In this document: positions 1 through 53,639 of the stretch, piece after piece
How positions within the stretch are numbered: position 1 is the first letter of the stretch
Layout: each line of letters begins with the position of its first letter
Source of the DNA: Cymbidium sinense
Lineage: Eukaryota > Streptophyta > Magnoliopsida > Asparagales > Orchidaceae
Assembly: GCA_021442155.1 (NCBI GenBank)
Contig: CM038221.1
Coordinates: 46,571,648-46,635,647 of the forward strand
DNA: 64,000 nucleotides
Direction: 5' to 3'
Position numbers and translations under genes: made by a program
The notes under the pieces: model-generated
Database searches by the model: none
Told to the model about the DNA's origin: nothing
Seen by the model: only the letters and a program-made list of their open reading frames with translations

Positions 1-600
1 GCCATATACTAAAGGTTAGTCAGTGCCGAAATTCCACTCATTTGATGGAAATGGTAACCCCAGGAAGCACCTAGGATAATTTAAAGAAACTTGTGGTAAT
101 ACTGGGGGTAATGACACACTATTGTTTCATTATTTCATTAACAGCTTAACTTCATCTACTTTTGAGTGGTACACAGAATTGCCAAATGACTTAGTTAAAA
201 TATTTGCCGAGTTGGAGGCAATGTTTATCAAAAGATTTGCTAGTACAGTTAGAAAGACTATTATAGCTAACCTTGCATTGGAGAAAAGGAGGAAGGATGA
301 GTCAGTTACAAAATACATAACTTGTTGACGCAACATGAGCATGAAGTGCGAGCAATAGTTGGAAGAGGAACATGCAATTCAGTTGCTAATGAGCAACATT
401 GATGATAAAATGACACCCTATTTATGCATGGCTTCCATCACCACCTTCCAAGAACTACTTGATCGGGTGGTGAAATTTGAAAAGCTGAATCTTTCCAAAC
501 TTGAAAGTCATTCAGACATAACAAAGGAAGGGAGGTTCTTAGAATCAAGGAAAAGTGAATCTCACACTACTTCATATGATTCAAATAAAGGAAGGTGAGC
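1..600 (+). pseudogene. gag: gag capsid region (Retrotrans_gag-like), element F
   Basis: Read with stops ignored, it begins with a VPKFHSFDGNG...PRKHLG motif, followed by NSLTSSTFEWYTELP and FAELEAMFIKRF. This is the usual plant Ty3/gypsy gag core (FDG..DP..H, then W(Y)..LP, then F..RF). Stops occur after the PRKHLG motif, at 326-328 and again around 356 and 596-598, so no intact product is possible. Element B has the same domain on the - strand at 51250-51700 (NSLRGVAFDWYAELP), which confirms the family relation. The role in an active relative would be capsid formation around the genomic RNA. Confidence 0.85.
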
Positions 601-1300
601 AACCTATAATGCAGATAAGGGGAAACAACTCATTTATTTTGAAGAAAGCGTCAAACAACCCTTCAATTCTCCACCAAAGTTAGTTCTTAGAAGTAATGAC
701 AAACTTAGAACTTTCTCGGGTAATGGTGAGCACCCAAGATAATTATTAGGAGATTATGATCAAATTCATCCATCTCTTAAGGAGAAAATGAATAAAGAAT
801 ACTCTTTCAAAAAAGAAAGTGTAGCTAAACTATTCTGACAAGCATTGAAGGTAGGGTTAGAGTTGCCAGAATGTAAAAGATCTGAAGAGTCGAGGAATGA
901 ACTGGTAGCCCAAATTATTGTCCATATCATTGGGTAGTTAGCCACCCTATAGAAGATTGCTATGTATTCCAAGACTAGCTAGAAAGAAAATATAGGAGAG
1001 GTGAATTCACACTATCTAATAGTTTTCTTATTCACCCAAAGAAAGAATCTACAAATGTGATTACGTCATCTTCCATGCCCTCGTAGGAAAATAAAGCAAA
1101 AGAAAAGATAGTTGAGGATGATAAATGGGAGGTTGTGGTCTCAAAGAAAACTATGAAGATGCTGAAGAAATTAGAAGGTGTTTGTGGTGTCAGATGGAAA
1201 TCACCATTTAAGGCGGTACTAGAACCGAAGGAAGGGCCCACATCAGAAGGTTCTTCTCTTCAAAGATAGTCCAAGGTGATTGGCACCCCTCGACCTAAGA
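600..1300 (+). pseudogene. gag: gag C-terminal part with C-x2-H-x4-H-x4-C motif, element F
   Basis: Translation with stops ignored gives a motif CPYHWVVSHPIEDC at 919-960, followed by a D.LERKYRRGEF segment. C-x2-H-x4-H-x4-C is the spacing I associate with the knuckle near the gag C-terminus of Tat-type elements. All four metal-ligand positions are kept here. In element B the matching stretch (about 50640-50700, -) reads FPYHYMISHALEDY, where both cysteines are lost. The frame is broken by stops at about 741, 837, 935 and 1086. Confidence 0.65.
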
Positions 1301-2141
1301 AGTAGCTATTCAAAACCTACCAAAAACTCTCAAAAGACCAACTAAACAAAAGAAAATAAAGAAAGAAACCATTACCCAAAAAATTATTAATAATATTGAA
1401 GAATATCAACAACCAGCAAGACAACCAATAAGCTTATTGATTTCATATTAGGACTCCAAATCATTGAAATAAATGATGAAGGGGATGATGACAAAGAATC
1501 TAATTTTGGAGAAGTCCACGGGTTATCTCAGTGTCCTTGGATACTCCCTGATGAAATTCACTTCTTCAAGATAATTCAAGAAGAGGAACCACCAATGATG
1601 TGGCATTCATGTTTTTCCTGATGGTGAAGCAAACAGATGATAACTCAGAAGATGACTTGTGCTTTCCGGAGGAAGATGAGTTAGAGTCTTCAATATCACC
1701 ACTGATGAAGGGCATAAAATTGGGAAGTGATTCTAAAGTCTCCATCCAATCCTCTGGAAAAAATGGTGATTCTGAAGAGGAGACTTCTTTAGAAGAATTT
1801 GAGCCAAACAGAGGAGCCCCAGTGCAGTTAAGAAGTGGTAAGATGTTTCCATCATCATAGAAGAAAGGAACACCAAATAAAGGCAAGGACAAAAATATAG
1901 AAGTTAAAGAAGATATCATTCCTAAAGATCTAATGAAGAATTCTAACATGGATAAGGGAATTGATTACAACATCTTGTCACACTTAAGGAAGATCCTTGC
2001 ACAATTGAGTGTGTATGAGGCCCTCTTGATGTCGCAGGATCTCCATGAAATTTTAATTTAGGCTCTTAAAAATTTGAAGAAATATGAAGTGTACTTTAAG
2101 AGCGATGTATGACTAAAGTATTATAATCTTAAAACCTTCTG
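1300..2141 (+). pseudogene. gag-protease linker, element F
   Basis: A charged, serine- and glutamate-rich segment lies here, with an open stretch at 1600-1860 containing EEDELESSISP and GDSEEETSLEEFEPNRGAPVQLRSGK. No catalytic motif is visible. The corresponding part of element B (49892-50323, -) is also serine- and acid-rich. It joins the gag knuckle to the protease and is interrupted by several stops. The - strand frame over the same bases is a shadow. Confidence 0.55.
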
Positions 2142-2681
2142 ATGACCACCTTCTCTAAGGAAGATCTTATGTTTGGAACATCAGAACACAATCACCCGCT
2201 ATATGTCTTTGTAGAGAGCGATGGTGTCATAGTCAATCGAATTCTAATTGATCCAAGTTCATCTGTCAATCTCATGAGTCTGCGAGCATTGAAAGGATTG
2301 CCTCTCAAAATTCAACATTTAGGACGAGACAAATTGATGATCCACGACTTCAATGAAAAAGGGAAAAAGACTCTCAGATCTTTTACCTTGCCACTAAGAT
2401 TTGGAGAACTTTATACAGAAGCCAAATTCAATGTCATTGATGCTGACACCTTGTTCATGGCTTTGTTGGGTTGTCCTTGGCTACATGAGTATGAAATAGT
2501 CCCATCTACTTTGCACCATTGCACAAAATACATAAGAGACGAGGATGAACACAAAATTTCTAGCAATCTTCAGCCATTCGCAGTCCATGAAGCTAAAATC
2601 TATGAAGATGCAAAATATTATTTGTTAAAGGAGCCTAGGCATCAAAAATCCAAGGCTTCTACTACAAAGGCTGCAAAATAA
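2142..2681 (+). pseudogene. retropepsin-like aspartic protease domain, element F
   Basis: An open stretch of 179 codons holds the protease fold: HNHPLYVFVESDGVIVNRILIDPSSSVNLMS, then IHDFNEKGKKTLRSFTLPL, then FNVIDADTLFMALLGCPWLHEY. This is the arrangement of plant gypsy proteases (VD.G.S..., GF....G.I.L, F.V.D....Y...LGRPWLH). The active-site triplet, expected to be D-(S/T/G)-G, reads D-P-S here, so the enzyme was probably inactive even before the frame decayed. Element B has D-Q-G-A at the same place (49166-49525, -). The stretch downstream (2722-2943) is a lysine- and acid-rich linker towards the polymerase. Confidence 0.8.
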
Positions 2682-3279
2682 TCCAAAGAAGTCAAGAAGG
2701 AAAAAAGAAAGAAAGAAGGCTATGCCTACTCTACTTAAAACAACTAGTGCATCACCTAAGTTGAAAAGACTAGTCTCTCATCTGGGTAGTGACACAGAAG
2801 AAGAAGAGGATGATCTTTCTATCAGAGCCAAGAGAATAAACAAGTCTCTGGTGAAAGAAAAGAAAAATATAGAATACTCAAACCCCAATTATGATTCCCT
2901 ACGTGAACCTCTTTCAACACTTCAAGGAAGTTACTCCATGTGAAGTCCACATTGTTGAAGAGTTGAAGACTTTCTATGTATCTCCTTTGCCTAGAAGTGA
3001 TGAACATAAAATTTCATTTTACAAGTCTGAGGAGTGTTATCACTAAGATTCTGATTGACTCATGCAATTTAATGAATCTGATGATATGGTTCCCACAAGA
3101 ATGGAAAAATATTTTTCTCCAAGGATTCGCAAGATGATGCACAAAATGGGAGATAATGTTGGAACAGACAAATGGTGAGCCCACTTATTTGATACCCTTT
3201 GGGGTTTAAAAAGTCCATAGATCTCATGAAAGTGTGATAATCATACATCTAAAGGTCTTGGATACATCTACATAAACAT

Positions 3280-4135
3280 CGTCGAAGAAAAACCTATTAT
3301 GCAGTAACATAAGAAGAGATTGAGATTGAGACCAAACTTAAAGTTGATCCTTATGAAGTTAATCTTACAAATGATCAGGAGGTAGAAGCTAAGCCTGCAC
3401 CTGATGAACTCGAAGATGGTGGACAAACAACTAGCATGGATGAGTTGAAAGAAATCAACTTGGGAATAAAGGATGATTTCCACCCAACTTTCATTAGTGT
3501 CCTTCTTCCTGATGAAAATGTTAAAAAATGAGAACTTTACTTTGTGATTTCAAGGACCGCTTTGGTTGGACATACTCTAAAATGCCAGGCTTATCCCCTG
3601 AGGTGACAGTTCATAAACTCACCATTAAACTAGATGAAATGCCTATTAAGCAAGCTCCTAGGAAAATGAGGTTGGAGATTGAATAATAAGTAATTATAGA
3701 AACTAAGAAGCTGATTGAAGCAACCTTCATCCGGAGGAGAAGTATGCAGATTGGATAGCCAACATCATCCCAGTTAGGAAGAAGAATGGTCAAATCCGTA
3801 TTTGCATTGACTTTTGAGATATGAACAAAGCATGCCCAAAAGATGACTTTTCGCTTCCAATATCAGAACTACTAGTGGACAATACTTCCAACTATGACAT
3901 GTTCTCATTCATGGATGGATCATCAGGGTACAATCAAATCAAGATGGCCCCTGAAGATGAGAAGCACACATCATTTAGGATACTAATTGGTATATACTGG
4001 TACACAATCATGCCCATCAGATTGAAGAATGCTGAAGCTACATATCAGAGGGCCATGACAGGCACCTTCGATGAGTTGATTCATCAGAAAGTAGAATTCT
4101 ATGTGGATGACCTCATCGTTAAGAGCATATATTGA
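3280..4135 (+). pseudogene. pol: reverse transcriptase, element F
   Basis: The N-terminal approach has a DELKEINLGIKDDFHPTFISVLLP motif around 3430-3510, then a PGL....V.HKL..K linker with frameshifts. From 3821 the polymerase palm is readable: NKACPKDDFSLPISELLVDN, SFMDGSSGYNQIKMAPEDEKHTSF and VEFYVDDLIVKS. The catalytic YVDD box is at 4100-4111 and the first catalytic Asp is in FMDGSSGYNQI. The frame ends at a TGA at 4133-4135 and continues in the next entry. Stops around 3530, 3686 and 3818 mark it as dead. Confidence 0.9.
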
Positions 4136-4870
4136 GAAGATCACTTTGATAACCTAAGGATGGTCTTAGAAAGAATTAGGCAATATGATCTCAAGATGAA
4201 TCCTCTTAAATATGCATTCAGGGTTTCTTCTAGAAAGTTCCTTGGCTTCGTGGTTCGACATAGAGGAATTGAGATCGACCATAATAAAATCAAAGTAATA
4301 GTGGACATGCCACCACCGAAGAATATTCATCAGCTTCGTTCAGTGCAGGGACATTTGGCATTCATCCGACATTTCATATCAAATCTATCGGGCAAGTGTC
4401 AACCATTTGCTAAATTGATGAAGAAGAATGTGCCATTTAAGTGGGACGATGAATGTCAAAAAGCATTCGATAGCATCAAAAGGTATCTATTAAACCCACC
4501 AATTCTTGCAGTGCTAATTTTGAGAAAGCCTCTTATTTTGTATGCAGCTACACTAGAAGAATCTCTCGGAGCATTTCTTGCACATCACAATAAAGAAGGC
4601 AAAGAAAATGCACTGTACTACATAAGTTGAAGATTGATAGAAGCTGAAGCAAAGTACTCTCTAATCGAGAAGCTCTGTCTTGCATTGATCTTTGCCATCC
4701 ATAAGCTCAGAAATTTCATGCTATCACACAAGATAATGCTCATCTCAAAGATCGATCCATTGAAATTCTTGATGACAAGGCTAGTGTTAACAGGTCGCTT
4801 GGCATGATGGGCAGTGCTCCTGTTACAGTTCGATATTACATATGTATCTTAGAAAACTGTAAAGGGGAAA
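4136..4870 (+). pseudogene. pol: RT thumb/connection and first RNase H domain, element F
   Basis: Readable motifs are LKMNPLKYAFRVSSRKFLGFVV, IKVIVDMPPPKNIHQLRSVQGHLAFIRHFI, PFKWDDECQKAFDSIKRYL and LILYAATLEESLGAFLA, then (after a TGA at 4628-4630) AEAKYSLIEKLCLALIFAIHKLRNFM. This is the normal gypsy RT-RNaseH continuation. The first RNase H Asp, normally in LY.D.S, is replaced (LYAATLEES). The homologous part of element B lies at 42162-42575 (-). Confidence 0.85.
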
Positions 4871-5029
4871 ATACTAGCAAATTTTCTCACTGTGCATCCT
4901 ATCCCAACATATTCAATAGTCGATGATTTACCTGATGAACAAATACTACTTATCTATGAAAGAGAAAAGTTACAAATCTAGAAAATGTATTTTGATAGTG
5001 TATGATCTATTAAGCCCGCTCAGCCCCAA

Positions 5030-5400
5030 AATCTGCCAAAAGTAAGAGCTGGCGTTAGCCTCATCTTCATAACATTGGAAGGTGGCATAATGAGGCATTC
5101 ATACAGGCTGACTAAGCCAAGAACCAACAATGAAGTTGAATATAAGGCATTGGTGGCAGGCCTCGAAGAAGCTGCTGTTATCGGCATCCAAAATTTAAGA
5201 ATCTTTGGAGACTCTCAATTGGTGATCAACCAAGTGTTGGGTCTCTATAAGATTAATAAGCTTGAATTTGTATACTATCATAGGCGAGTGCTTGAGCTAA
5301 TGAAGCAAATTCTGAATGTTAAACTGGCCTGAGTTTCTCGATCGAAGAATAGCAAAGCAAATTGCCTGGCCAAGCTAGAAAAAAATGGCAAACACGGATG
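5030..5400 (+). pseudogene. second RNase H domain (archaeal-type, Tat-specific), element F
   Basis: The open part at 5075-5332 carries TKPRTNNEVEYKALVAGLEEA and IFGDSQLVINQVLGLYK, which are the E- and D-containing motifs of the RVT_3-type RNase H found downstream of the ordinary RNase H in Tat/Ogre elements. The first Asp motif (FDGS) is not visible; the preceding bases read ITLEGGIMRHSYRL. The segment after 5332 continues as SRSKNSKANCLAKLEKN, the usual N..AD.LAKLA end of the domain. This domain is the main reason for placing the family in the Tat branch. Confidence 0.85.
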
Positions 5401-5739: not shown

Positions 5740-6169
5740 TGTTGACCTTATTTTTAGAATGAGCTCCCAGCACCTCCATCTTAGGCTTAGGATTCCTCTT
5801 ACTTTAAGAGTTCCTTAGTCTTAAGACACATCTAGTGATTAGGTGGACACTCCAACCTAGCCCTATAATACGTAGAAGAGTTAGCCATAGGAATAAGTCA
5901 TGCTTTAGGGGTGTTGGGAAAATTTCCTACCCTTAGCTTAAACTTTTCCTCACTTTCCTTCTTTCAAGTCAAACTCCAAATCAATTCTATTTGATTTTCT
6001 TAAACTCAAATCAATTCCATGATTGAGATCCATGATTGAAATCCATGATTGAAACCCATGACCAAATTCCATTAAAAATTCCTAAGTTCAAATTTCCTAA
6101 GTCCTTAAACCCTTTCTTAAGGACTTAGCCAAAATCATGATTCAAACCTATTCAAATTTTTGAGATTTT

Positions 6170-6760
6170 CTCATGATCCATTTATATTCTCATTTATATT
6201 CTGATATATAAATTAAATATAAATTCAAACCCATCAAATTAGATTCAAAATTCAAAATCAATTCATGAAAATTTTCTTAAGTCCCTTTAATTTTCCATTA
6301 AAGGACTTAGCCAAAATCAACTCTAAACCTTGATCAAATCAATTCAAATCCTTGGGATTTTCTCAAAACTTATTTATATCCTCATTTATATTCACATATA
6401 TAAATGAAATATAAATATAAATCAATCCAATCAACTCAAAAATTAAATTCTAAATTTAAAATGCTTGAAATTCCCTTAAATCCCTTAATTTTCCATTAAC
6501 GGATTTAACCAAAACTTTGATCAAACAAACCACTTCAAACTCATGGGATTTTCTCAAAACTTATTTGTATTCTTATTGATATTCTCATATATAAATGAAA
6601 TGTAAATATAAATCAATCAAATCCAATTCAAAAATTAAATTTCAAATTAAAAATTGTCTTAAATCCTTTAAATTCCCTTTAATGGATTTAACCCAAACCA
6701 TGATCCATTTATATTCTCATTTATATTCACATATATAAATAAAATATAAATTCAATCAAT
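6170..6760 (+). repeat. Four AT-rich subrepeats with an inverted repeat, LTR D
   Basis: Copies start near 6180, 6370, 6560 and 6706 (spacing about 146-191 bp). Each holds CATTTATATTC followed by ATATATAAATGAAATATAAAT, which can fold on itself. Between them are variants of a cctttaatggatttaacc box. The copy number differs among LTRs of the same family: four in D and E (44150-44700), three in A and B, one in G (21645) and C (56390). Confidence 0.75.
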
Positions 6761-7079
6761 CAAAACTAATTCCAAAAATCAAACTCAAGTCCACTCAAAA
6801 TCAAATCTAAGTCTTTCAAGCCAAAATCTTGAACTTAGTCAAATCATCTTCAAATCAAGCCAAACTCTTGATTTTCTCTCGTGGTTCAATCAATTCTACA
6901 ATCATGAGCTCATTTATAAATCCAAACCTCAATCAAACAATCAAAACCAAAATTAAAAATCAAACCCAAGAATCCTTCATATTCTTCCTGAGTATGAAAT
7001 TTCCAAATGGATCAAAATCTATTTGACTTCAAACCACTTGTAAATAGATTTATATTTCAATCATAAGTCCATATACAAG

Positions 7080-11459: not shown

Positions 11460-12530
11460 AAATATAATGGGTGATGTTGATACCTGTACTGGCGATGGCG
11501 TACATAGGGTAGAACGGCGGGGTGGAGACACCACCGACTCTTGTGTACAGGAGTTGCCCTCCTGTGATGGCTTGTCCCCATGAGGAGAATACTATCAGTA
11601 TGGTCGGCGTGAGTAGCACGCTGAGCTAGAAAGTCAACCAAAGCATAAGCGGATGACTAACAGTTGAACCTCCGTCACTCTCTACTGGTAATGTATGATG
11701 TATGGGCCTCACGCGCCTTCTCTTGATGGATCTGCCTCCCTACATTGTGGGGGATAACATATCATAGATTGAACTAGGTACCAGACTTCGAGCATCCATA
11801 TGCTCCACCTACCTGGCGTAGAATAGAGCGAAGGCCTGTGTACGACTTCCTACTCTTAGAAATTGCTGGCTGCATATGCACCACTGGAGGGCACCACTGG
11901 AGGAGGCGATGAATAGATCCTCCTGGCATCCTCTTTATCTGATCCTGAGAGAGGATGAAACTGGTTGTAACCAGTTGTGATGTGACCATGGGAGACTCAT
12001 CCATGGTTGAACCACTCGCCAAGCTCTATCTAATATGGAACCGCTTTGACCATACGGTTCTTGTTCTCACGTAGGATGAGAGGAGTGTAAGCTAGACCCA
12101 TACTCAAATGTGGGGGATGCAAGCCCTGAAACTAGGGGAGCCTTACCCTTGGAGGGTACATATGGTAGGGTGCTAGCACACAACAGGGAAACATGTGCAA
12201 CTCGAGGATGAAATGCCACTGGAACTAGAACTGCTGGTACTATCTGTACTGAAACCACTGAAGTTTGTGGTACTGCCATAATTGTCCTCTTCAATGAGGA
12301 GATATCTGAATCAGAGGGTAAGTCTACCCTGATGACAGGCTTCTGCCCGACCACCTTCTTCCTGCTGACTATAGTGAGGGGAATTCCCTCATAAGTGATC
12401 CTGGCCCCCCCTCAAATCCATAACCAAAATGGATGAAATGGGTGTGATCCAAATGACAGAAGTCATCCTGATCCAAGGCTAGATCCATGCTGTGAGGGAA
12501 AGTAAAGACAAATTTCTAAGAGCCTACCAT
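11460..12530 (-). pseudogene. gag: gag N-terminal region, element A
   Basis: The reading begins with an ATG at 12530 (-) and KFVFTFPHSMDLALDQD, which matches the start of gag in element B (MAHKFVFFFPSSVDLALDLA from 53541). Further matches are the SSLKRTI...PSKGKAPLVSGLASPTFEYGSS segment (12067-12354) against B 53036-53341 and the YTGLRSILRQV segment against B 52808-53008. Stops occur throughout. The coding is lost at about 11460, where LTR D meets it. The protein part is serine- and proline-rich, with no catalytic motif. Confidence 0.7.
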
Positions 12531-12639
12531 TGCACTGAATGAAGTAAATTGAAACTAAAACTGTACTGATTAAAAAGAATCTGCAATGAGAAATGAACTT
12601 GCATCAATTTTTTGTCTCCATATATTTAGGAATTTGAAT

Positions 12640-14860
12640 TTTGGAAATTTGAACCCACATCCAACAACTTGGGAGTGTTAAGTGTAGTTCAAATGAATTT
12701 AGAAAGATTGATTGAAACAGGAATTTGAGTATGAATCCAAACTTCAACAAGTTTGAGCATGTTGAAATATGGATTCAAAATTTTTATAGGATGCTTCCAT
12801 AGGTTCATTTTGTTATGAATTTGAGTTTTTTTGTGATGGAACACCCTTTCCTTTAACAAATTTGGGTATGTTGAAGAAAAGGTCAAATTGGTTTTATTTT
12901 GTTTAAATGTTTTGGAATTTTTACTTAAGCAAATTTAGGTATGCTAAGTGAAGTAAAAGTGATTGTTTCTTTTTTGTGAAAATTTTTGTTTTGTTTCAAT
13001 TTTTTTTTTTAGAAAATTTTGGAGTTCTTACTTAGAAAATTTAGGTATGCTAAGTGAAGAACCCAAGTGTATTTTGTTTGATTTTGAAAAATAGGATTCT
13101 TAGCAAATTTAGGTGTGTTAAGAAAATCCTAAGTGTTTCATTTTTTTGCAAAATTTTGATTTTTGAAAAGGATATGATCCTTTAGAAATTTGGTATGCTA
13201 AGGGAATCCTAAGGTGCTTCATTTTGTTTATGAAATGATTGAAAGTGGAGATTCAACTTTAGCAACTTTGGTATGCTAAAGATAAATCACACTTGGTTTT
13301 GCGAAATGGAAATTTCACTTAGCAAATTTGAGTATGCTAAATGAAATTCCATATGGTGTATTTGAAATTTTGATTTATTTTGGTTTTGAAAAATGGAAAT
13401 GTCTCCTTAGCAAATTTGGTATGCTAAGGAAAGAAGTTCCAAAATGGTGTTTGAATATTTTATTTTGACTTTGGAAACTTTAGCAAATTTGAGTATGCTA
13501 AGTGAGGTTCCAAAATATGTTTTGAAAAAGTTTTGAATTTTGGATTTGGAAACTTTACTTAACAAATTTAGGTATGTTAAATGAAGTTCCAAATTTGTTT
13601 AGAAAATTTTGAAATGTGATTGTTGGTTTTGAATTTTTGAATTTGTAAACTTCACTTGGTAAATTTGATTATGCTAAATGAAAATCCAAATATATGTTTT
13701 GAAATTTTTTTGAAATTTTTGGGGTTTGGAGACTTCACTTAATAAATTTGGGTATGTTAAGTGAAGTTCCAAATGTGTTTGTTGATTTTGATTTTTTTTT
13801 TTTTTGGATACTTCACTTAGAAAATTTGATTATGCTAAATGAAATTCCAAATGTATGTTTTGAAAAAAATTTAAAATTTTTGGGATTTGGAGACTTCACT
13901 TAACAAATTTGGGTATGTTAAATGAAGTTCCAAATGTGTTTGTTGATTTTGATTTTTTTGAATTTGTAAACTTCACTTATCAAATTTGATTATTGTAAAT
14001 GTAATTCCAAATGTGTTTTGAATTTTTTTTGAAATATGATTATTGATTTTGATTTTGGGTTTTTGAAACTTTACTTAGCAAATTTGATTATGCTAAATGA
14101 AATTCCAAATATGTGTTTAAAATATTTTTGAAATATGATTATTGATTTTGATGTTTTGAAAAGAGGACCTCCATTTAACAAATTTAATTATGTAGAATGG
14201 AGATCCATCTTATTTTTAAAATATGATGTTTTCATTTTGTGTGTGATTGTTGCTTTTCTTTTTTTTTTTCTTTTTTTTTGAAAGAGAAAATTCCAAATTA
14301 AAACATATGTGAGATATGTTTAAGTGGGATTTCCTAAAAGAAATTTTCATTTTTTTTTAGTTAGGAATGAAATCTTCATTTAATAAATTTAAGTATATTA
14401 AAGGAAGGTATTCATGTGTGCTTTTTGAAAAGTTTATTTTTTATTTACAAATGAACTTTCCATTCAATAAATGTGAGTATATTGAATAGAAAAAAAATCA
14501 TGTGTTCTTTTGAAAAGCTTAATTTTTGTTTGCAAATGAACTTCCTATTGAACAAGTGTAAATATATTGAATAGAAAAATTCATGTGTGCTTTTGAAAAG
14601 CTTAATTTTGTTTACAAATGAACTTCCTATGCAATAAGTGTGAATGTAATGAATAGGAAAAAATCATATGTGCTTTTTGAAAAGATTTATGATTATGATT
14701 GTGATTTTTGAAAAAGATGATTGTTTATTTTATTTTGAAAATGAGATCTTCACCAAAGTGAATTGAAAGAAGATATTCATTTGTGCTTTTAGAAAATTTT
14801 ATTAGTTTTATTTTTCAAAATCCCTACATGTAATAATTATATGAATTGTTAAATGAGGGT
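12640..14860 (-). repeat. Leader array of about 25 stem-loop repeats, element A
   Basis: Units of roughly 60-100 bp each hold an inverted repeat around a loop like AAATTTGGGTA (+ strand reading). Examples: CTTAGCA...TGCTAAG, CTTAACA...TGTTAAG, TTCAACA...TGTTGAA flanked by GAATCC...GGATTC (12733-12776), and CTCCTTAGCA...TGCTAAGGA (about 13405-13435). The arms differ from unit to unit but usually remain complementary. Between 13545 and 14000 the loops alternate GGGTA and GATTA types, giving a dimer period near 161 bp. The array lies in the untranslated leader between PBS and gag. Confidence 0.85.
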
Positions 14861-15035
14861 GAAGAAATTTTTGTGGAAAATATTTTATTAAGTGCATTTT
14901 TGAAAAATGTGCTTTTAAAAAGAAAAGTTCTTTATGGAAGATTTATTTTTTTGGATGAACCTTTCCTTATCATGAAGATGATAAGGAGGAAGTCTTTAAG
15001 AGATGTTTCCTTTTATTTTAGATCTTTTCATTTTA

Positions 15036-15056
15036 CCCATTGGAGAATCCAACGGG
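15036..15056 (-). ncRNA. Conserved 9-bp leader stem-loop, element A
   Basis: In sense (- strand) orientation the stem is CCCGTTGGA / TCCAATGGG with loop TTC, including one G-U pair. It starts 196 nt downstream of the PBS start. Elements B (55020-55040) and C (63606-63626) have the same 9-bp, 3-nt-loop structure with different bases. Candidate packaging or dimer-start signal by position; function not shown. Confidence 0.6.
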
Positions 15057-15235
15057 GGTTTTAAGACCAAAAAGGAATGTGGTCCTAAACCTAAAGATGT
15101 TGGCTAACTTAACTCAAGAATGAAATGAGCTAAGTGCTAACAAAGAAGGATAGTATTGGATTCATACCAAAGTACAAACCCACTATCGATGCTCAAAGAC
15201 AATGATCATTTACCAAATATGGAGAGAGGAGCCAT

Positions 15236-15252
15236 CCCCAGTGGAGTCGCCT
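15236..15252 (-). other. Primer binding site, element A
   Basis: In sense orientation it reads AGGCGACTCCACTGGGG; the family form is TGGCGACTCCACTGGGG, which complements a tRNA ending GGTGGAGTCG plus CCA (plant tRNA-Arg type). It is separated from the LTR end (15261) by the 8-nt spacer seen in B and C. A second, degenerate copy of the junction (gtcgcc...aaatctgttggtg) follows 49 bp away at 15295, after a run of 12 G (15284-15295). Confidence 0.8.
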
Positions 15253-15260
15253 GAAAAATC

Positions 15261-18200
15261 TGTGGAGAAAAATTCCTATATATGGGGGGGGGGGGTCGCC
15301 TTCCAAATCTGTTGGTGAAAAATGAAAGAGGCAACACCCTATATAAAATTTAATCTTGGTAAGACACCACATAGATCCGCAGATGTACTTATTCAGGTTG
15401 ATATGTCATCAAGATATAGTGTACTATCTCCATAGTCGCTACCCTTTAATGGAACAAATCACCTTAATAAGGACTCCTAAGGATGATGGGTCTACATATG
15501 TACCAGAGACTCTTCTGCTACTTTACATGAAAAAGTAAAGTAGGATTTATTTTAAATCGAGTTCATTAAGTTCCCTACAAGAGAAAACCCCTTAAAGGAT
15601 AGGATCCCTTAGGAAAACTCTCAATTAAGGTAAATGATCATTGTCTCTGAAGATTCTAATAGGAAGGACTATCAATTGATTGGTTTATATTTGAAGGATC
15701 AAATGGGATTGATCAATAGAGGGAGTTATTATCGAAGCCAAAATGGGAAATAAGTAGGAGATGCCCATGATGCTAGGATACTTAGTGAGCATTTCAAACT
15801 ATCCTAAAATTGGGTTTTACATTTTAGAAATTGATTTAGTTTATTTTAGTTGTATTTTTCATTAGAATTTTAAGACTTAAGTTTTCTTAGCACAAAAGAA
15901 ATGCCTACGATGTGAGGAATTATCTTATGGCCCACAAACGGGAAAAGCAACCTCAGAACCTAAATATAGGGAGCTTCGATGAAGGCCGGAAGCACAACCT
16001 AAATCTAAGGCAAAAATGGATAATTGGTTTGCCTCCATAAGAGAGGACAAACCACTCGACATCTTGGACTTATAACCGCCTGGGGGTGGCCACCAACTAA
16101 CTCTTCCTATGATTTTAAATACATGTAGGCAAATCTTTATGCTTATGCAAGATAGCTAGGTTATTTTTATTTAGAAAGAGATTAAGTCCTTAAACTCACT
16201 CTCTAAAGAGACTAGATCATGTAAAGGGATATGCTTCAAATGACCTAAATCTAATGCAATTCAAATTTTATTTTTATTTTTATTTTTGTACAATCATTTT
16301 GACTCAGGCTAATAGGATTTTTATGACTAATGCATGAGAAATCAGATTATTGGACAAAATCAGTGAGAAGGTAGGAGGTGAGTTTCCATCACGGCCCTCA
16401 AAGGTCAAGCCGGGTTCTCTTACAAAGGTGAAAGCCCTCTAATCAAGAGTGAAATAAGATGCATTTATGCATGATATTATAAATAAATGCTCATCCAGCT
16501 AAGGGGCTGCTAATTCTTTTATCTTGACTTTAATCCTAAGCATTGAGTGAGGTTATAAGTTATTTAATTTTAGTTTGAATTGTTAAGTGGGGTAAAAGAT
16601 TTATTTTTTCCAAAAGAGCCTAATTCACATCCAGACCATACATAAAGCAAGAAGAAACTAAGAAAATTATGCCACTTAATGCAAAAGCTAAACAAATCAT
16701 CAAACAATTTATAAAGCTAATCCTAAAAAGAATAGATGGTCATTTGCGATTGGGCACCACTGCACAAACTCAAAAATATCAAATGTGGGTAGCGGAGCTC
16801 TACCCTTATACATTTCAGATTATAAATGAATCAAATTATAATTTAAGCAAATGAATTCATTGTTATGGGGGTCTTCAAGCTTTATTCTTATTTCTTCTTT
16901 CATCTTTTCTTCTTTCTTCTTTTCTTCTTTGGTTCCTCATTTAGATGGTTGGAAGGTGGATGCTCCAAGGCTTCACATTGTTCATAAGATGGGATCTTAT
17001 GACCAATGCTCATCCTAATCCCCATAACAAATCATTCCAAAATCCTAAATATACAAATTTTCACTTAAATAGGAAAAGTATAAATCTAACTAACATGTGG
17101 AAAACAAAGGTTAGTCAAATCACACCTCACAAATCCTAATCATGTGCATTGGACTTATCACCCCACACATGGATGACTAAGTCCACCTGGCCTATGGATT
17201 ATGCTTAGGGGTATAAGCACCTACAAGCAAGAAGCATTTATATTTTTATTTATGATAGTGCCCCTTTAGCATAATCCCCTATAGAAAAGAATAGTTATAC
17301 TAAGCATGTCCTTCCATTCATTCTATGAGCATACACCCTAACATCCAGTCTAAAACATATTCATCATAAAATAAAATATAATATCAAACCATGCATCGAC
17401 CTAACCAAAGGCTAGAAGTGGTGACTTAGGCTAATGTGTGTGTTTTAAAGGTTTGTGTGGCATGCTTAGCTTTCAGGTTTAAGTTTTCTAAGTTTGAAGG
17501 ACATGTTCAACTTAGAGGAGGATTTCATTTAAGTTGTTAGGTTATTGAACACATAAAGCTCTACAATTTGATCAATTAAGAGAAATCAGATAAAATTACC
17601 CTTTAATTAGGTTAATCAAGTTATTAATACATTAATCCATTCCTCTTTACTAAATTACCTAATTTAATTGATTATCCCTTTGAAATGAAATGGAATTAAG
17701 GTGAAAAAGGTTGGGTAAGAGGTCCCAGCCTAATTCCATAAGCATCTTACTTAATCAAACATGATTTGGTATGATTTGAGTTTTAACTTAATTAATTAAG
17801 CCATTAATTAGTTATTTAATCTTTAATTAGCATTTTGGTTAAAAAATAGAAGGAAACAAGGGGAAAGATTAGGGGGGAGGCCCCAATCCATATTTCCCAA
17901 GTCTCTTCACTATTAAATACTGATTAAGGGGTCCAATTTATTAATTAATTATTATTCAAGTGCTTAATTATTACTTAATTAAGCTAAGAAGATAATTAGG
18001 GCTTATGCAATAAATTTCCCAAATTAATCAACCAATAAATTCAAAGAAAAATAGGGGAGGTAGAGGTCATCCCCTAAACATTCTCAAAAAGTTTGAAATT
18101 GATTGGTTAATTAATTAGGGAGTAATTCAGCTAAATAAAATTTTAATTAAACTCTAATTAAGCCAAAAATACTATTTAAAATTAATTAAGGATAATTTTA

Positions 18201-20775
18201 ATGGATTCCCCTCTGAAATACCTTTAAATTGAGCCATTATTTATATTATTTAGATATTTCTATAATTAGTTATGAATTATTGAAGTTTTAGCCTTAAAAA
18301 CATATTAATTAACCTAATTAAAGCCTTAATCCCATCAGCGCCCTGTGGCATGCTGACGCGGCGTGCTTTCCATGTGGCGTCGTGAGATTGGTTATTAAAG
18401 TATTCACATTCATGCACTGAGTCAGCTGACGATGACGTGGTATTGATCTCAGTCATCCGATCTCGGATCCGACGGTGTAGATCAATCCCGTGTCGTAAAG
18501 GGAGAAAATAGAGAAAATCTAGCATGATTTGATCGGAGTCATTCATTCCAATCACGCAAAATGGATGGCCCGTGATCCTTCTTTTAGCAAGCGATGAACA
18601 ATGAAGTTCATCCGCCATGGATCATTCGATTCAAGCTCACTCGAGTTCAGATGAACTTTAAAGTCAACCCCACCATTAGGGAAAGAATCCGCACACATCC
18701 AACAGTTAAGATTGACTTGTATGTGAATTTTTTTTCACAAAGGACCAACCAAAATTCTAATTCAATGGTTTTGGGAAATTACCTCTCCAAAGCTCAAGAC
18801 TGGTGGTAGGATCGATGGAGGTAGTTTTTTGTAGTAGAGACAAGGCCCTGTTGAGTAGCACACAAGCCAATTCCCCTTGGTTTGCTTTGTGGATCAACTT
18901 CCATCACTGTGGAGCTCAGCTTCGATCGTAAACCATACTCCGGTGGGTTTGGAACTTAGGGGAAGCTTTAGGTAGCCTCGACAAGGTATGTGGAAGGTGT
19001 GTGTAAGGTATGAGGAATTAAAATTTGGTTGAGAAATGAAGAAGTTGGAATCAGGATTGAGCTCCCCTATTTCAGCCCTTCTCAGGAAGGAGAAATGCCA
19101 AAGGAGGAAAGCTTGGAATCACTCTAGGGTTTGCAAGGATGCTCAAATTTTCCCTTGAAGGTCAAATGGTTCGAATGAGCTGACTTCCTATGCGAATTGA
19201 GGGGATATACCCCTCGATTTGCTGAGGTAGATGGACAAGATCGCTTTCCATTTTTCGGCCAGCCAGCCATCGCTAGAGCGCTAGAGTGGTCACCATCAAG
19301 TTCACATGGCTCGTCTGAATTGGGATAAGCCATGGCAGTAGGCTCCAGGATTGATTTGGTCAGTTTGCCTTTGCTTGGATCCTTTGTTTTCTCGATTTGC
19401 ATGGGAGGTGGGTTAACTCACCTCCCTTTGGTCCAAGGTAAGTCCTAACATACTTATGGTGGGTTGGGAAGTTTATGGATGCTCCTTTTAGGTCAATTTG
19501 GGGTAGGTTGGGTCAAGTTGACCAATTGGTCAAATTGGGATCAATTATGGCTTTGGTTAAGCTCAATAATTAATTTGGAATAAATTTGAGCCATTGGTTG
19601 CAATCAATTTGGGTTATATCATGATTTGACCCATTTTGGCCTTTTAGGTCAATTTGGGTCAACTTGGATCAAATGGACAATTGGGTTTGGTTTGGCTCAA
19701 ATGACGGTCAAGTCATGTTCAAACATTGATTATGGGTTGGTGTGAATCAATGGTTTCAATTAATTTGGTGTAGGATGAGTTTTGGCTAGTTTGGGTTTCA
19801 TATGGACTAAAGGTTGACTTGGTCAAATGACCATGTTGACTTGGTTTGAGCCAATTCAAAGTGTTTGATCATCCTAGGGTGATTGTTGATTATGATATGA
19901 GGCTTGGATGGGCTTGGTTCAATCCAATTTGGGTTGGATAAGAACATGGCTCAAAAAGGCTCTTTAGGCCACTTTGGGTCAAGTGAACCTAAATGGGTCA
20001 ATTGGCTTGGTCTTGGCTTGATTCAAGTTTAGTTGAACTTATATATGAGCCTATGATTGAAATATAAATCTAACTACAATTAATTTGGAATCCAATAAAT
20101 TTTGGCTCATATGAAGTTTTCAAGCTAAAAGGGCTAACTTGGGCTTGACTTGGGTTGACTTGAGTTTGGTTTGATGATTATAGGTTTCATTTATATTTGG
20201 ATAGATGATTGAAGGAATGATTGATTTAGGAGAGAATTCATTAGTTTTGACTTGATTTGGATAGGATTTGGCCAAGTCTAAGGAAATGGCTTAAAAGGCT
20301 TGCATTGGGTTTTGATTTGATTTTGGATTTAGTTTTGGCTATTTGAATTTCTATTTCATTTATATTTAAGAAAATAAATGAAGATATCAATGATTCATGA
20401 GAAAACGATTTGAGTTTGGAGTGATTTGGAAGCAGATTTGACTAAGCTCATGGATATAGGTCAAAAGGTCTGAGAAGGAAATAAATTTAGTTTGATTTAT
20501 TTTTGGTCATTGGAAGGTGGGTTTCATTTATATTTATGAATATAAATGATGAAATAATTGGTTTATAAAGAAACTAATTGATTTTGGGTTGATTTGGGTT
20601 AAGATCTGGCTAAGCTTATGGAGGTATGTCCATATGGCTTAAGAAGGGTCTTGGCTTCATTTGATTTAGTTTGATTTGGTTTTGATCATTTGAGTGTGGA
20701 TTTCATTTATATTTATGAATATAAATGAAGGAATAATTGATTTATAAAAAAATCAATCAAGTTTGGGGTAACTTA
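15261..20775 (-). mobile_element. 5' LTR of element A (-), interrupted by element B
   Basis: Read on the - strand this is the LTR body from its TTGACC-rich part (about 19440-20260) to its end at 15261. Element B is inserted at 20776, within the AT-rich subrepeat zone, so the first part of the LTR lies outside the window. Relative to LTR G about 1.75 kb is missing at about 17537. The palindrome GAGGGG-TATAT-CCCCTC (19199-19215), donor-like AG|GTAATT (18782) and acceptor-like TAG|GTGC (17221-17223) are all visible in sense orientation. No coding sequence was recognised. Confidence 0.85.
19199..19215 (-). promoter_or_regulatory. TATA-containing GC palindrome, LTR A
   Basis: Sense GAGGGG-TATAT-CCCCTC, a perfect 6-bp inverted repeat; 433 bp upstream (sense) of the donor-like site at 18782. 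Confidence 0.5.
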
Positions 20776-21080
20776 GTTGGTGTTTATTTTTGGTTTATGT
20801 ATATGTGTGACACTATGCAGATCTGATGGTGTACTTATTGAAGTGATATGATATGACGATGGTGTACTTATTGAAGTGATCTGATATGACATTAAGAATG
20901 GTGCACTATCTCGAAAGATAGAAATCACCACCTTATAATGGACCTAATCACCAAATAAGGACTCCTATGGCATGATGGATCTTTAAATATACCATAGATT
21001 TTTTTCCTACTTTACATGGATGAATAAAGTAAAGTTTATATTAAACCGGGTTCTAAAGTTCCTAACGGGGGCAAGCCCCC
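20776..21080 (-). mobile_element. Terminal part of 3' LTR of element B
   Basis: In sense orientation this is the last 305 bp of the LTR; the end (ggtgtttatttttgg on the + strand) sits next to LTR A sequence. It contains a 33-bp tandem duplication (20825-20890, gatggtgtacttattg...). It continues at 28910 on the far side of LTR G; in the undisturbed copy at 55506-55513 the two flanks (agccccc and atacttaatt) are directly joined. Confidence 0.85.
21076..21080. other. Target-site duplication CCCCC, left copy of LTR G
   Basis: Five Cs directly precede TGTTGACC; the right copy is 28905-28909 directly after ACACCACA. The target is the 3' arm of a palindrome GGGGGCAAGCCCCC in LTR B. Confidence 0.85.
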
Positions 21081-23470
21081 TGTTGACCTCACTTTTGGAG
21101 TGAGTTCTCAAGTACCTCATCATAGATCTAGAATCTTGCAGACACTAAGAGCTCTTAGTCTTAATACATTTATAGTGATTAGGTGAACACTTAGCCTAAG
21201 CCTAGAGACTTAGAAGGATTAGCCATTGGAATAGGTCATGCCTTAGAGACTTAGGAAAACCTACCTACCCTATGGTTCAAACCCAATCCATGCTTCCTTC
21301 CTCAAACCAAACCTCAAATTCAAATCCAAATCATAAATCAATTCCAAACCAAATGATTGAAGCCCTTGATCAAACCCTTTCTAAGCCCTTCGATTTCATC
21401 TTATGGACTTAACCTTAACCAAATCCAAATCAATCCCAATTCATTTGATTTTCTCAAATATCAATTCAATATTTCAATCAAACTATCAAAAATCAATTTA
21501 AATCCAACTTCAAATGAATCAATCCCATGATCAAATCCAAACTCAACCAAATTTTCTTCTAAGCCCTTTTGACCTACATCCATGAGCTTGGTCAAATCTG
21601 CTTCCAAATCATTCCAAACTCAAGTGATTTTCTCATGAATCATTTATATCTTTATTTATATTTCCAAATATAAATGAAATATAAATTCAAATAGCCAAAA
21701 TTGAATTCAAAATCAAACCCAAATCCAATTTATACATTTTAAACTAATTCCTTGAACTTGGCCAAATCCTATTCAAATCAAATCAAAATCAATGGATTTT
21801 CTCTTGAATCAATCATTCCTTCAATCATCTATCTAAATATAAATGAAATCTACAATCATCAGGTCAAATCAAAATCAACTTAAGTCAAACCCAACCTAGA
21901 CCATTTGACTTGAAATATTCAAATGAGCCACAATTCATTTGAACCCAAAACAATTGTAATTGGATTCACATGTCAATCTCAAATCCATATATAAACTCAA
22001 TTAAATCAAACCCAACTCAAAATTAAGCCAACTAAACCCAATTGGTTCACTTGACCCAAAGTGGCCAATTTAACCCACATGAACTAAAATCAAATTCAAT
22101 CAAAATCAAAGCAAATTAAGCCTATCCAAACTTCATGTCATGATTGTTGATCATCCTAGGTTAATCAATTATCATGAATTGGGTCAAACCAAGTCAACTG
22201 AGCCTGTTGACTAAGTCAACCCTTTAACCCATAAGAACCCAAATTAGCCAAATTGCAACCTAAACCAAAATTGATTACAACCAATGGCTCAAGTTCATTC
22301 TAAATTGATTACTTAACTTGACCAAAGCCTTAATTGAGCCCAATTTAACCAATTGGTCAACCAAACCCAACTTAGCCCGAATTGACCTAAAGGGTCAAAT
22401 CAATCTAAAACCCAATCAAATCCAAATTAAACTTAACCAAAGCCTACAATATATTCAAAATGATCAACCAATCCCAAACTAAGCCATGGTTCAAGCCAAT
22501 TTGGTTAATTGGATCAAATTGGTCAACTTAGCCCAAATTGACCAAAAGGATCAAATTGGCAAAAAACTAAATTAAATCCAAATTAAACTAAATTGATTAA
22601 ATCCAATTGAACCAATATACTCCAAATGATCATTTGAACTTGACCCAACCCTTGGTTTGACCCAATTGGTCAACCTAACCGGATTTGACCAAATTTGGCC
22701 CAGATGGGTTAAATTGACCTAAATTAAACCAAATGAACTCCAAATGACATGAATTTTGGTCCAACTCACTTTTGACTCATTTTAAATCTGCTCAAATCAA
22801 ATTCAATACTAAATGACCACTTTGCCATTGGGTCAAAGGCATCCCATGAGAAAAGACACTTGCCCAAATGGTCATTTCTCTTCCTTGGCCAATTGACACT
22901 CATCCATGGGTCCACCTAGGCACCAAGGACATTGATCATCTGACCCAAGAGGTGGTTGGGGCAGCCATGACTCATGGGGAAGTGAATTCACGTCACCTCC
23001 CCCATTGGAACACTTGGCATGAAGGACTCCCACCTCCCCTTGCTAGGACACCCATTTGTCCTTCATGGTAGCCACTTTTCATGCCTTAGCCAACCAAAAT
23101 GAGCCAACCTATGATGATTCTCTTCCATTCCCAACCACCCTAAGCCAAATGACACCCATTTTGGAGCCAAAAAAAAAAAAAGATAAGAGATTTTCAGCCA
23201 CATTTGAAACTAGAAAATTAGAGACACCAAAACTCCTCCTCCCACTCTCATTTCCACCCCCTAGAGCTCCCAAACTAACTAGCAACCCATCCCACTTCAT
23301 TTTGGGGTGAAAAACACCAAAATCAAGTTGATCTCGATGAGGAAGTGGCGAGGTTTATAGAACACATCGTTCTAAAGTGAAAGCGAAGGTCTAGGCTCAT
23401 TCTAAGGCTTCTTTCCCCACTCAAAAGTGTGCTTGGATCATCACCGCTGTCGAAAATTATCCCTGGTGAG

Positions 23471-26400
23471 GTAATCTCCAAAAACCCGTAGCTAGCCTTA
23501 GGATTTCTTATTTTTTTGATGACTTTCATGCAATTTTAGGATTTTTCCTTAGAAATCTCTTGCATTCTTTATTTTATACAATAATAATATGAAATATAAG
23601 TTTTTTGGTGCGAATTTCCATGAAAATGAGCCCATTAAGATGAAATTTTGCTTAGATTTCACATTTTTTCCATGGTTTACCGTTCTGCCAGCCGTGATGC
23701 ACATCAGCAGTCCGATCCTACAATTCGCAAGATTGGACGGTTTATATCATGCATTGATCTTGCATTTCAGCCCGTCAGATCCTACGGATTAGATCCAGAC
23801 CATCCGATCCATGATCGGATGGCTCAAATCACGTGCCGATCACGCATTTCTGCCATCGGATCCCGCATATTGGATCTTGAGCGTCTGACCAGTGATCAGA
23901 CGGTCAGATCTAATCCACACTTCCTTATCCTATTCAACCATTTTCTAGCTCACTCACTACGTTAGTGCTATGCGGTCCAATCACGCGGCGCCGCGTGGCA
24001 CCACGTGTCACGCGGAATCCCACATCCAATTGTGTGGCGCCGCGTTGCCCCATTGGCCCTGCACGTAGTTTTGACTGGGCTAAGTGAAAAAATTCAGATT
24101 TTCTAATTTTAAAGATTATTTAAAACATGTAAAAATTCAAAAAATTCTTAGAAAATAAAGTACTTAACTAAAAATTTCATATAAGGGCTTGTGGGATTTG
24201 TCTTTTTGAGAGGAATCCAACAAACTCAAAATTCCCAAAATTTACTAGATATTTTGAGCTTAATTTGAGTTTTAGTAAAAATTAAATTTCATTAATTAAA
24301 CCAAAAATATACATTATATTAAGTTAAAATTTTTATGTATTGAAATTGAAGTTAAAATACAGCTACTATAAATAGTTCAAGTCCAAATTCTAAAGTTCTA
24401 ATGGTAAAAATAAATTAATGGACTTTGTAAAAATCATGAAAAATCACTTAAATCAAATGATACTTTGAAAAATCATAACAAATCATAGAGAAATCATAAA
24501 AATACAAATAAATACTTATTTTAAAGGTATTTTGGAGGAGATTAAATTAAAAGTAATTCTAATTAATTTTAAATAGTAATTAAAGCTTAAGCTTAATTTG
24601 GGTTTAACTGAAAACTTAGTTAGCTAAATTAATCCCTCATTACCTAAGTAATAAATTTTAAACTTTTTGAGATTGATTAATGGGACGACCTCTGCCTCCC
24701 ATAATTTTCTTGGGTTTTATAGCTTGGTTAATTTGGGAAATTAGTTGCCTTAGCCTTAATTACTTTCTTAATTAATTAGGTGATTGATTAGCATGCTAAT
24801 TAGAAAGGAAACTATTAATTAATCTTATTAATTATTGTGGAATAGTGAATGGCAATTGGAAATGTGATTGGGACCTCTTTCCCATTTTTTTCCCTAAGTT
24901 CAATTCACTTGAATTGAAACTAATTAATTTAGGACTAATTGATTGTTTGAATCATTAATTAAAAATGGCTTAATTATTCAAATTAAAACCATAATCACTC
25001 CATAACTCATCTAATTAAGTTTCTTGGATAGATTTTTAGGTGTTTAATAACTTAAATCTATATAAGGAAATTATGGCTAACCTAAATATGTGCAGAAGCC
25101 ATAAAAGTACTTAATTAAGTTCCTTAACCCAATTAATTATTAATTATGAGTTAATTTCATTAGGCCCTTTCATTTCTTAGGATCTTTTCAAGTTATTTTT
25201 CATGCATATCATGTTGGCTCATAATTAATTGGTTAATTACTTTAAGATAACATAGGCAAGGGTTAATTAATTGATTTAATTCATATCATTACTTAATTAA
25301 TCCATAAAATTCCCCTAATTATTTTCATTGAACCAAATTAATTAACAAACATGGGAATGGGTTAGGTGCAGTAAATGATTGAATCTCATCTCTAAATTAA
25401 ATCAAACATCCAAAAATAATTTAATAAGAAGTTTTGGTTTATTTTAAATAAGCTTATTTATTATGATTGTCCTTACGAATTAGTTAGATTGAATCAAATT
25501 ACATGCTTATGTCTCTTTATTTCTTTCTAATAATGTTAAAATGTTGCATGCCACTTGATTCATGCATTCATTTCTTTAAAAAAATCAATTAAAAATAAAT
25601 GATTTTCTTTATGTCAAGTTGCATGTGTTGTCTTAATTAAAAATATGTGTGACTATTATCACTATTAACTTGCAAATATATTTTCAAAAGCTTTTTAATG
25701 AATAATAACATATACACATTGTGACTTTAGTTATATATACATAGGAGGTGCATGTGAATATAAGGCTAGTGTATGAAGTGATGTTCTTTCTTATATTCAT
25801 ATGTTGATTTTCATCAGTAATAATGTTAGTGGGTATATTAGTCTGGACATCCCAGGGATGCACGACTTTAAGTAGCCCTAAGGAGTTTCCTAACTCACTC
25901 CCTTCGTGTGAAACAATGGCGATGTAGCTACTTGATTTCATTCGTATTCATTTTAACATTAGAATTTAGATAGAGCTGTAATTCATTCACATAAATAAAT
26001 CAATTAAATCAAACTCTACTTTTGCATAGTTTTCTATTCTTATAGTTGTTTATATATCCATATGTATTTAATAATAATGGGTATATTAGTTTGCACATTT
26101 CGGGGACACACGGCTTTAAGTAGCCCCAAGGAAGAGGTTCCTACCTTGTTCCCCTGGTGCAGAACAATGGTGACATACTTGCTTAAAACTTTTATTCATT
26201 TGAATGTGCATTTAACTAATAAATGGAAACCCCCTTTTTTCTATTAAAAATACATGCATTCATATTTTGTTCAAGTGGTTGGATTGATTAATCATATGAT
26301 TTAGAGCTCTTTTCTTATGCTTTTTTATAATTATTTTGATAGAGCTTTAAATTTAAATGACAAAATAATTCAACCAAGTGAAAATCAATTCTAAATACAT

Positions 26401-27053
26401 TTGCTTACATTCATCATTTAAGTGTGCTAAGATATAAATTGCATACATAGTTATGTTTAGGACTTAATCATATGCATGCTACATATGATGGAAAGAAATG
26501 AACAAACATGTGTTGTGTGATAGTAATTAATTCCAATTAATCTTAAGAGGTCTTTCTTATTGAATGAGATCATTTAAAGTGAACCTGAACTTAAGATTAA
26601 TTAAAATATGTAATAAGCCATTTGCTAAAGAGAATTGATAAATTAATTGGCTTTAAATGTGATTTAAGGTAGGGATGAAAGAGAGTGATCCTCTCTTTAT
26701 AACACTTAGTTGTTAAGTTTAAATCAAATGAAACAAAAGAAAACATTAAGTAAAACTTACAAATCAATTTAACCACTTAAATTGAAACTACCATTCATAA
26801 TTAAATCTCTTCATACTTAGAAAATAATAACAAAGCCTAGTTAGGACATACCACACAAGCCTTAATACACACACCTTAGATTAAGTCACCACTTCTATAT
26901 TTATGTTAGGGCGGTGCATGGTTTGATGTATGTTTAGTTTTACGATGTATTACTTTAGACTGGATGTTAGGATGTGATTAGCCTAACCATATTTTCTATA
27001 AAAGATTGTGCTTATGAGGTGCTTAAAATAAATATAAATGCTCTTTTTTGTAG
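23471..27053 (+). other. Candidate intron within LTR G
   Basis: It is bounded by GGTGAG|GTAATC and a pyrimidine-rich CTCTTTTTTGTAG|GTTG. The same pair occurs in C (58481-61462), B (33862 down to 30427, -) and A (18782 down to 17221, -). The conservation of both ends in copies that differ greatly inside is the only evidence. Confidence 0.35.
25831..26200 (+). repeat. Two tandem copies of the GGCTTTAAGTAGCC repeat, LTR G
   Basis: Both start GGGTATATTAGT (25831 and 26079, period 248 bp) and run through a box with 'catcccagggatgcacgactttaagtagcc' similarity, ending in an AACAATGG box. LTRs D (about 10895) and C (about 60548) have one copy; LTR B has three (31260-31860). Confidence 0.8.
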
Positions 27054-37472: not shown

Positions 37473-40110
<2,638 letters not shown>

Positions 40111-53541: not shown

Positions 53542-53639
53542 AATCTTCTTTGAAAAGGCGGTCTGCATTTGTTGAAACATAATTGAGTTAGACCCTTGTT
53601 TTAATATTTTTCTTCAATCATTGACTTCTAAACTTGATT

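Follow-up and report, generated by a model that had tools for sequence, protein, structure and literature searches.

Two elements in the window, by which we mean the whole 64-kb stretch of DNA analysed in this study, carry tandem arrays of hairpin units between the PBS and gag. The arms of these units vary in sequence from one unit to the next and stay paired within each unit. The reading that we favour, with a probability of roughly 0.6, is that the array is an RNA structure under selection in the 5' leader of the genomic transcript. Judged from this position, packaging or dimerisation of the genomic RNA may be its function, a suggestion that we hold tentatively. LTR retrotransposons make up a large share of many plant genomes and, to our knowledge, the packaging signals of plant LTR retrotransposons are hardly known. 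In every copy, the array offers numerous natural variants of a single RNA element, whose rules can be read from the sequence and tested directly. In addition, the comparison of leader hairpins with LTR hairpins of one family allows selection on RNA to be separated from template-switch repair. The sample is limited to this window and to three copies of the leader, all of them decayed.

Elements in the window and their class

The window is made up of nested, decayed Ty3/gypsy elements (Table 1). In the plus-strand element, the reverse transcriptase (3,818-4,132) and two RNase H domains (RT_RNaseH_2 at 4,136-4,627 and RVT_3 at 5,006-5,329) were above the Pfam cut-offs. RVT_3 follows the first RNase H domain (RH) by about 380 bp, and this truncated copy has no integrase after RVT_3. 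According to the available part of PMC6317226, RH followed by a second RNase H is the order of Ogre/Retand elements and not that of TatI/II. This order also suggests an angiosperm host. In the element with array B, RT_RNaseH_2 was above the cut-off, a second RNase H domain was not found, and the integrase trace was below the cut-off. Matches for integrase, for the protease on the minus strand, and for the second gag piece (other than the fragment listed in Table 1) fell below the Pfam cut-offs, and these names were given by eye. The protease-like frame at 2,133-2,678 on the plus strand matched no Pfam family and was also named by eye. A protein search with this frame returned eight relatives, whose contigs measure 573-2,806 bases. 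Searches of viral contigs with a DNA pattern and with two proteins led to no confirmed related locus. The array-bearing elements are Ty3/gypsy elements, probably of the Tat clade (Ogre/Retand-like).

When the window was compared with itself, a very long LTR emerged in six copies. The solo LTR listed in Table 1 is inserted in a further LTR of this family. At 6,100-6,800, 20,300-20,770, 35,930-36,370, and 44,080-44,735, the LTRs contain tandem repeats of their own, which include short palindromes, for example TTCATTTATATT/AATATAAATGAA. A 189-bp tandem repeat was observed at 38,074-38,533, and an (AT)49 run at 38,930-39,027.

Table 1. Coordinates and strands of the features described in the window.
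Feature	Position	Strand	Remarks
PBS of the element with array A	15,235-15,252	-	complement of a tRNA 3' end, read from the sequence; motif common to copies B and C
PBS of copy B	55,214-55,231	-	motif after the LTR end
PBS of copy C	63,405-63,422	+	motif after the LTR end
Array A	12,645-14,790	-	24 scored hairpin units and one degenerate unit
Array B, leader of the second element copy	53,640-54,830	-	15 units; B8, B13, B14, and B15 degenerate
Leader copy C: PBS, leader hairpins, and start of a probable array	63,405-64,000	+	ends at the window edge
Three single-copy leader hairpins, copy A	15,060-15,089; 15,037-15,055; 14,965-14,986	-	three-copy alignment
Gag-side frame start, copy A	12,486-12,530	-	ATG at 12,530-12,528, then a stop (decayed copy); by eye
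Reading-frame remnant after leader A	12,070-12,411	-	Pfam matches all below cut-off or absent
Gag fragment on the 3' side of array B, same strand	51,255-51,512	-	PF03732, 25.5 bits (cut-off 24.1)
Gag-, protease-, reverse transcriptase-, and RNase H-like frames	80-5,329	+	frames; names partly by eye
Gag, protease, RT/RNase H, and integrase trace	51,512-40,837	-	frames; element with array B
LTR of the element with array A	15,261-20,810	-	3' end of the LTR at 15,261; 5' limit approximate
Solo LTR, 7.8 kb	21,081-28,904		TG...CA type ends, TGTTGACC...ACACCACA; CCCCC 5-bp target duplication on both sides

Position and composition of the arrays

The same PBS and leader follow the LTR end in three copies, namely A and B on the minus strand and C on the plus strand. 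By resemblance to Ogre elements, the PBS of all three copies may be of the tRNA-Arg type. A tRNA-Arg PBS is given for Ogre elements in the available text of PMC9289625. The leader measures about 2.7 kb from the PBS to the gag-side ATG in copy A and 1.7 kb in copy B. The hairpin array fills it from about 400-450 nt past the PBS to about 100 nt short of this ATG. The PBS and the gag-side start both lie on the minus strand, which is therefore the sense strand for array A. A second in-frame ATG of copy A, at 12,488-12,486, is preceded by a pyrimidine tract with a CAG end. Stop-to-stop frames of at least 70 aa were found at 12,692-12,934 and 14,448-14,663 in array A, both on the minus strand, and at 53,576-53,797 (plus) and 53,772-53,984 (minus) in or overlapping array B. 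In copy C, the best unit-model matches (E of 0.57 and 0.041 with two models) were on the strand opposite to the sense of this copy. A 3' UTR repeat was considered as an identity for the array and ruled out, as the array comes after the PBS in both A and B.

The preliminary description had reported about 25 repeats between the PBS and gag, and the array is indeed located there. In array A, 24 units were anchored by loop homology, with loops from 12,667 to 14,637 and a unit spacing of 60-125 nt; one more unit, the 25th, was recognised by eye near 14,745, but it is degenerate and enters none of the counts. The sense loop of array A is approximately UACCYAAAUU, the linkers are A-rich with 3% G on the sense strand, and the stems of the better kept units, in either array, are about 12-20 bp long. 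The five arm pairs that had been quoted as examples of joint change were all recovered: tagca/tgcta in A9, taaca/tgtta in A16, caaca/tgttg and gaatcc/ggattc in A2, and ccttag/ctaagg in A10. One correction to that account is that the outer parts of the stems are out of register from unit to unit.

A self-complementary AAAUUU is present at the loop in 29 of the 39 units of the two arrays, and its last U falls in the closing pair. Another palindrome of at least 6 was found in 3 of the 10 units without AAAUUU, compared with 23% of 16-mers drawn at random from array A; hence, the idea of a dimer loop is without support beyond the conserved core. A two-unit block of 161 bp at 13,634-13,955 is duplicated with 89% identity, which indicates that array A grew recently. 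Units A20 (14,306) and B13 (54,626) share the same unusual loop type at corresponding places, and the two arrays may therefore be partly colinear. Rfam gave no matches above the gathering score across the window. When Rfam models were run over 12,000-16,000, two weak matches to miRNA models were obtained, far under their cut-offs.

Pairing and covariation of the arms

For the pairing tests, the units of both arrays (24 of A and 15 of B) were anchored by the loop and not by pairing, and the stem score treats G-T and A-C alike. The arms of a unit pair better with each other than with swapped arms, the stem score being 21.2 within units and 14.4 between units. Among 20,000 arm-swap permutations, none reached the observed value for all 39 units or for array A, and the same was true of A1-A11 and A12-A24 taken separately. 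The corresponding counts were 49 for array B, 11 for array B minus units 8, 13, 14, and 15, and 321 for B1-B7; B8-B15 alone were not significant (3,857). Among the 39 3' arms, a unit's own took first rank in 10 units and one of the first four ranks in 26.

Covariation also exceeded what phylogeny accounts for. In the null model, substitutions were re-placed on a FastTree tree computed from the same unit alignment. With 39 rows, Watson-Crick pairs occupied 69.3% of cells versus 36.6 ± 6.3% in the tree null (reached in 0 of 1,000 simulations), double-change cells numbered 76 versus 24 ± 6 (0 of 1,000), and pair types 25 versus 17.7 ± 2.1 (1 of 1,000). A 32-unit alignment was made by leaving out A20, A23, A24, B8, B13, B14, and B15, which are degenerate or off-anchor. 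In this alignment, standard pairs made up 82.8% of cells, versus 73.2% after shuffling and 35-46% with the partner slid, and 11 of 13 pairs had changes on both sides. The two outcomes that the preliminary description had named as refuting it, namely no covariation beyond phylogeny and arms pairing no better within than between units, were thus not observed. The RNAalifold check that it had put forward counts against the favoured reading, as no structure was predicted from the 32-unit alignment. Folding of eight hand-chosen single units gave z of -5.4 to -7.4 in seven and -2.4 in one. Chance and simple tandem duplication are ruled out by the arm swaps, the tree null, and the slid registers.

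When a unit model built from A and B was run over the window, 44 matches had an E of 1 or lower. All 35 matches with E < 0.005 were on the minus strand within arrays A and B, 32 of them being training rows; the remaining nine had E of at least 0.18 and were scattered on either strand. Training on 21 units of array A gave a model that recovered 13 of the 15 units of array B at E < 0.01. In its structured version, 12 of these 13 units gained 8-24 bits over the sequence-only model and one lost 2 bits, but the background was also about 8 bits higher and the E-values were overall no better. The cross-array model test contributes little.

The single-copy part of the leader, between the PBS and the array, was aligned for the three copies and folds to -65 kcal/mol, with a z against column shuffles of -7.9 for the sense and -6.3 for the antisense strand. 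Changes on both sides occurred in 10 of the 93 predicted leader pairs, six of them within three small hairpins (Table 1). Structure was likewise seen in the final 500-600 bp of the LTR (z of -6.8/-4.3 and -5.9/-5.5, sense/antisense), and an inner LTR piece, for which the alignment was poorer, is unstructured (0.2/-1.4). The 3' end of the LTR thus folds almost as well as the leader, which counts against the favoured reading.

Possible roles of the array in RNA

If selection acts on the array as an RNA structure, the genomic RNA, transcribed in the sense of the minus strand, would present 15-25 hairpins like beads on a string, joined by A-rich linkers that are nearly free of G. The units spread via local duplication, after which their arms drift; pairing and the AAAUU loop core are largely retained despite this drift. 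In the unspliced genomic RNA, the hairpin repeats may act as binding sites for Gag in packaging, as loop-loop contacts in dimerisation, or as both. A conserved AAAUU core together with free arms is the usual look of a hairpin that is read by its loop and shape, and the large number of repeats suggests avidity. A more specific version, which we consider improbable, is a multivalent device in which AAAUUU kissing loops would zip two genomic RNAs together and Gag sites would be repeated, the gag mRNA coming from a separate, perhaps spliced, pool that is free of the array.

Alternatively, the RNA fold may be selected for gene expression, either through diversion of ribosomes (internal entry or shunting) or because the array lies in an intron of the gag mRNA. 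We regard this as the next most likely use after packaging or dimerisation, although unlikely in itself. AUGs are not clearly avoided, with 28 versus 31.0 ± 4.1 expected in leader A, 19 versus 24.2 ± 3.6 in array A, and 16 versus 16.2 ± 3.1 in array B; hence, cap-dependent scanning through the leader to gag is unlikely, as ribosome diversion or splicing would have it. In both copies, the gag-side frame is immediately preceded by an acceptor-like pyrimidine tract that ends in AG (12,486-12,530 and 53,510-53,541). Among 2,810 YAG sites, that of B was in the top 2 and that of A in the top 40, with ties. Separate RNA pools, one of them spliced, are reported for BARE in the available text of PMC3735527. 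However, the tract of copy B reads KFVFFFPSS in frame (by eye) and may therefore be coding. Moreover, no donor-like site is outstanding, as the best consensus match is 6/9 in A and 7/9 in B and C, values of which 6 is reached by about 19% and 7 by 5% of the GT sites of the window. For an internal entry site, the difference in unit number between the arrays (24 versus 15) is, in our opinion, unexpected.

Hairpins of the LTRs as a control for template switching

Paired arms may also be kept up neutrally. In template switching, one arm of a palindrome would serve as template for its partner at a fork of replication or reverse transcription, so that pairing is restored with no selection involved. 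The process is described and yields compensatory changes (PMC8794818, available part). The non-coding parts of the present family are, in keeping with it, generally rich in hairpins. Their density in the LTRs was 1.4-3.2 per kb versus 0.45-0.67 after shuffling (2.7-4.8 times), compared with 2.5-5.0 versus 0.84-1.4 per kb in the arrays and 0.35-0.44 versus 0.19-0.26 per kb in coding-rich parts. Under a general repair of DNA palindromes, the hairpins of the LTRs are expected to covary too.

In six aligned LTR copies, 74 hairpins were scored outside the copy of discovery, and the same hairpin may enter repeatedly; the score was 12.9 within versus 12.1 between, with 47 positive and 24 negative differences (p = 0.003). 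This small excess of covariation is compatible with template switching. At equal divergence, however, orthologous LTR palindromes keep little pairing. For arm identities of < 0.6, 0.6-0.75, and 0.75-0.9, the within-between difference was 1.1, 0.3, and -0.1 in the LTRs (126, 165, and 134 pairs), whereas the arrays reached 7.9, 5.5, and 2.6 (462, 228, and 45 pairs). The contrast is weakened when only well-kept stems are compared, that is, when both stems score at least 16 or at least 20, a conditioning that itself selects for pairing. Well-kept LTR stems then differed by 3.6-5.2 at identities < 0.75 (4-11 pairs per class) and by 0.4-0.6 at identities > 0.75 (22 and 7 pairs), and well-kept array stems by 6.3-11.7 under and 2.7-4.0 above an identity of 0.75. 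Compensated cells numbered 227 versus 2,771 cells broken in one copy in the LTRs, and 1,243 versus 3,742 in the arrays; cells broken in both copies numbered 2,264 and 1,025, respectively. A weakness of this control is that many of the LTR hairpins may occur in a single copy; it demonstrates that kept pairing is absent there, and not that it was lost in every case. Since the LTR hairpins hardly keep their pairing, the palindrome-repair process seems insufficient. The upkeep of pairing is mainly a property of the leader.

Two features of the units themselves also speak against template switching. An inverted loop orientation was seen by eye in none of the 39 units, although loop inversions are also rare under template switching as described in the available part of PMC8794818. 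In addition, a one-base bulge is retained in several A units. On the sense strand, G-U and A-C occurred at 38:28 and 47:37 in two counts, an asymmetry that is neither significant nor decisive; its weakness counts for template switching and against the favoured reading. Template switching remains the chief neutral rival, and we judge it distinctly unlikely.

Strand of the putatively selected fold

The preliminary description had offered the folding of the genomic RNA and a DNA cruciform side by side. Selection on folding is supported, RNA is favoured, and the strand is corrected, the sense strand being the minus strand. On this strand, the linkers contain 54% A and 3.3% G in array A and 48% A and 4.4% G in array B; elsewhere on the sense strand, G amounts to 12% in the part of leader A that precedes the array, 14.5% in an LTR, and 19-21% in coding parts. 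When the units were given flanks of 150 nt at both ends, the mean probability of the native pairs was 0.62 for the sense and 0.42 for the antisense strand. The sense value was higher in 29 of the 39 units (Wilcoxon p = 2.8e-4, the units not being independent). The G-poor linkers, the better folding of the sense strand, the asymmetric conserved loop, and the weaker covariation of the LTR palindromes all favour sense RNA.

A role at the DNA level, in which the arms form cruciforms or palindromic protein-binding sites, is highly improbable. As in a cruciform, it is the complementarity of the arms and not their sequence that is retained. The loop, however, is conserved and asymmetric, the linkers are strand-biased, the sense strand folds better, and binding sites of fixed sequence would keep the arms conserved. 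That the array is an ordinary tandem repeat from a palindromic founder, with covariation reflecting shared ancestry, deserves hardly any credence. In its favour, the relatedness of the units is clear and recent duplications exist (the 161-bp pair), but the tree-based null and the arm swaps, including those within each half of array A, contradict it.

Comparison with known systems

Retroviral Psi is a leader region for packaging and dimerisation with stem-loops between the PBS and gag. The present array shares this position, the stem-loops, and a self-complementary motif, AAAUUU, at the loop in 29 of 39 units; it differs in that Psi has few hairpins whereas 15-25 stand in tandem here, and in that a packaging role is putative here. 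Like Ogre and other Tat-clade elements, the elements described here have a giant LTR, two RNase H domains of which the extra one follows RH, and large non-coding regions. Between protease and reverse transcriptase, where Ogre elements have an intron, the present copies are interrupted or decayed. The LTR, at 7.8 kb, compares with up to about 5 kb in the available part of PMC6317226 and with 6.4 kb in an orchid element in that of PMC9289625. Tat elements carry tandem repeats in the 3' UTR, downstream of gag-pol, according to the accessible text of PMC7004042, whereas the hairpin array fills the 5' leader here. Sireviruses share a high-copy palindromic motif in the non-coding parts of a plant LTR element; as given in the available portion of PMC2829016, nearly all of their motifs have a fixed CGG-CCG core and are located in the LTR and before env. 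By contrast, the arms of the array vary in sequence, and pairing and loop are retained. In Ty1 and Ty3, a 5' RNA structure is likewise linked to packaging, and the available part of PMC4974528 mentions no tandem array among the packaging determinants. No leader of such design was found in the titles and abstract openings of the open-access papers listed by literature searches, which is weak evidence. We rate structured retroelement leaders as already known, and a tandem array of covarying hairpins in the leader as a new variant.
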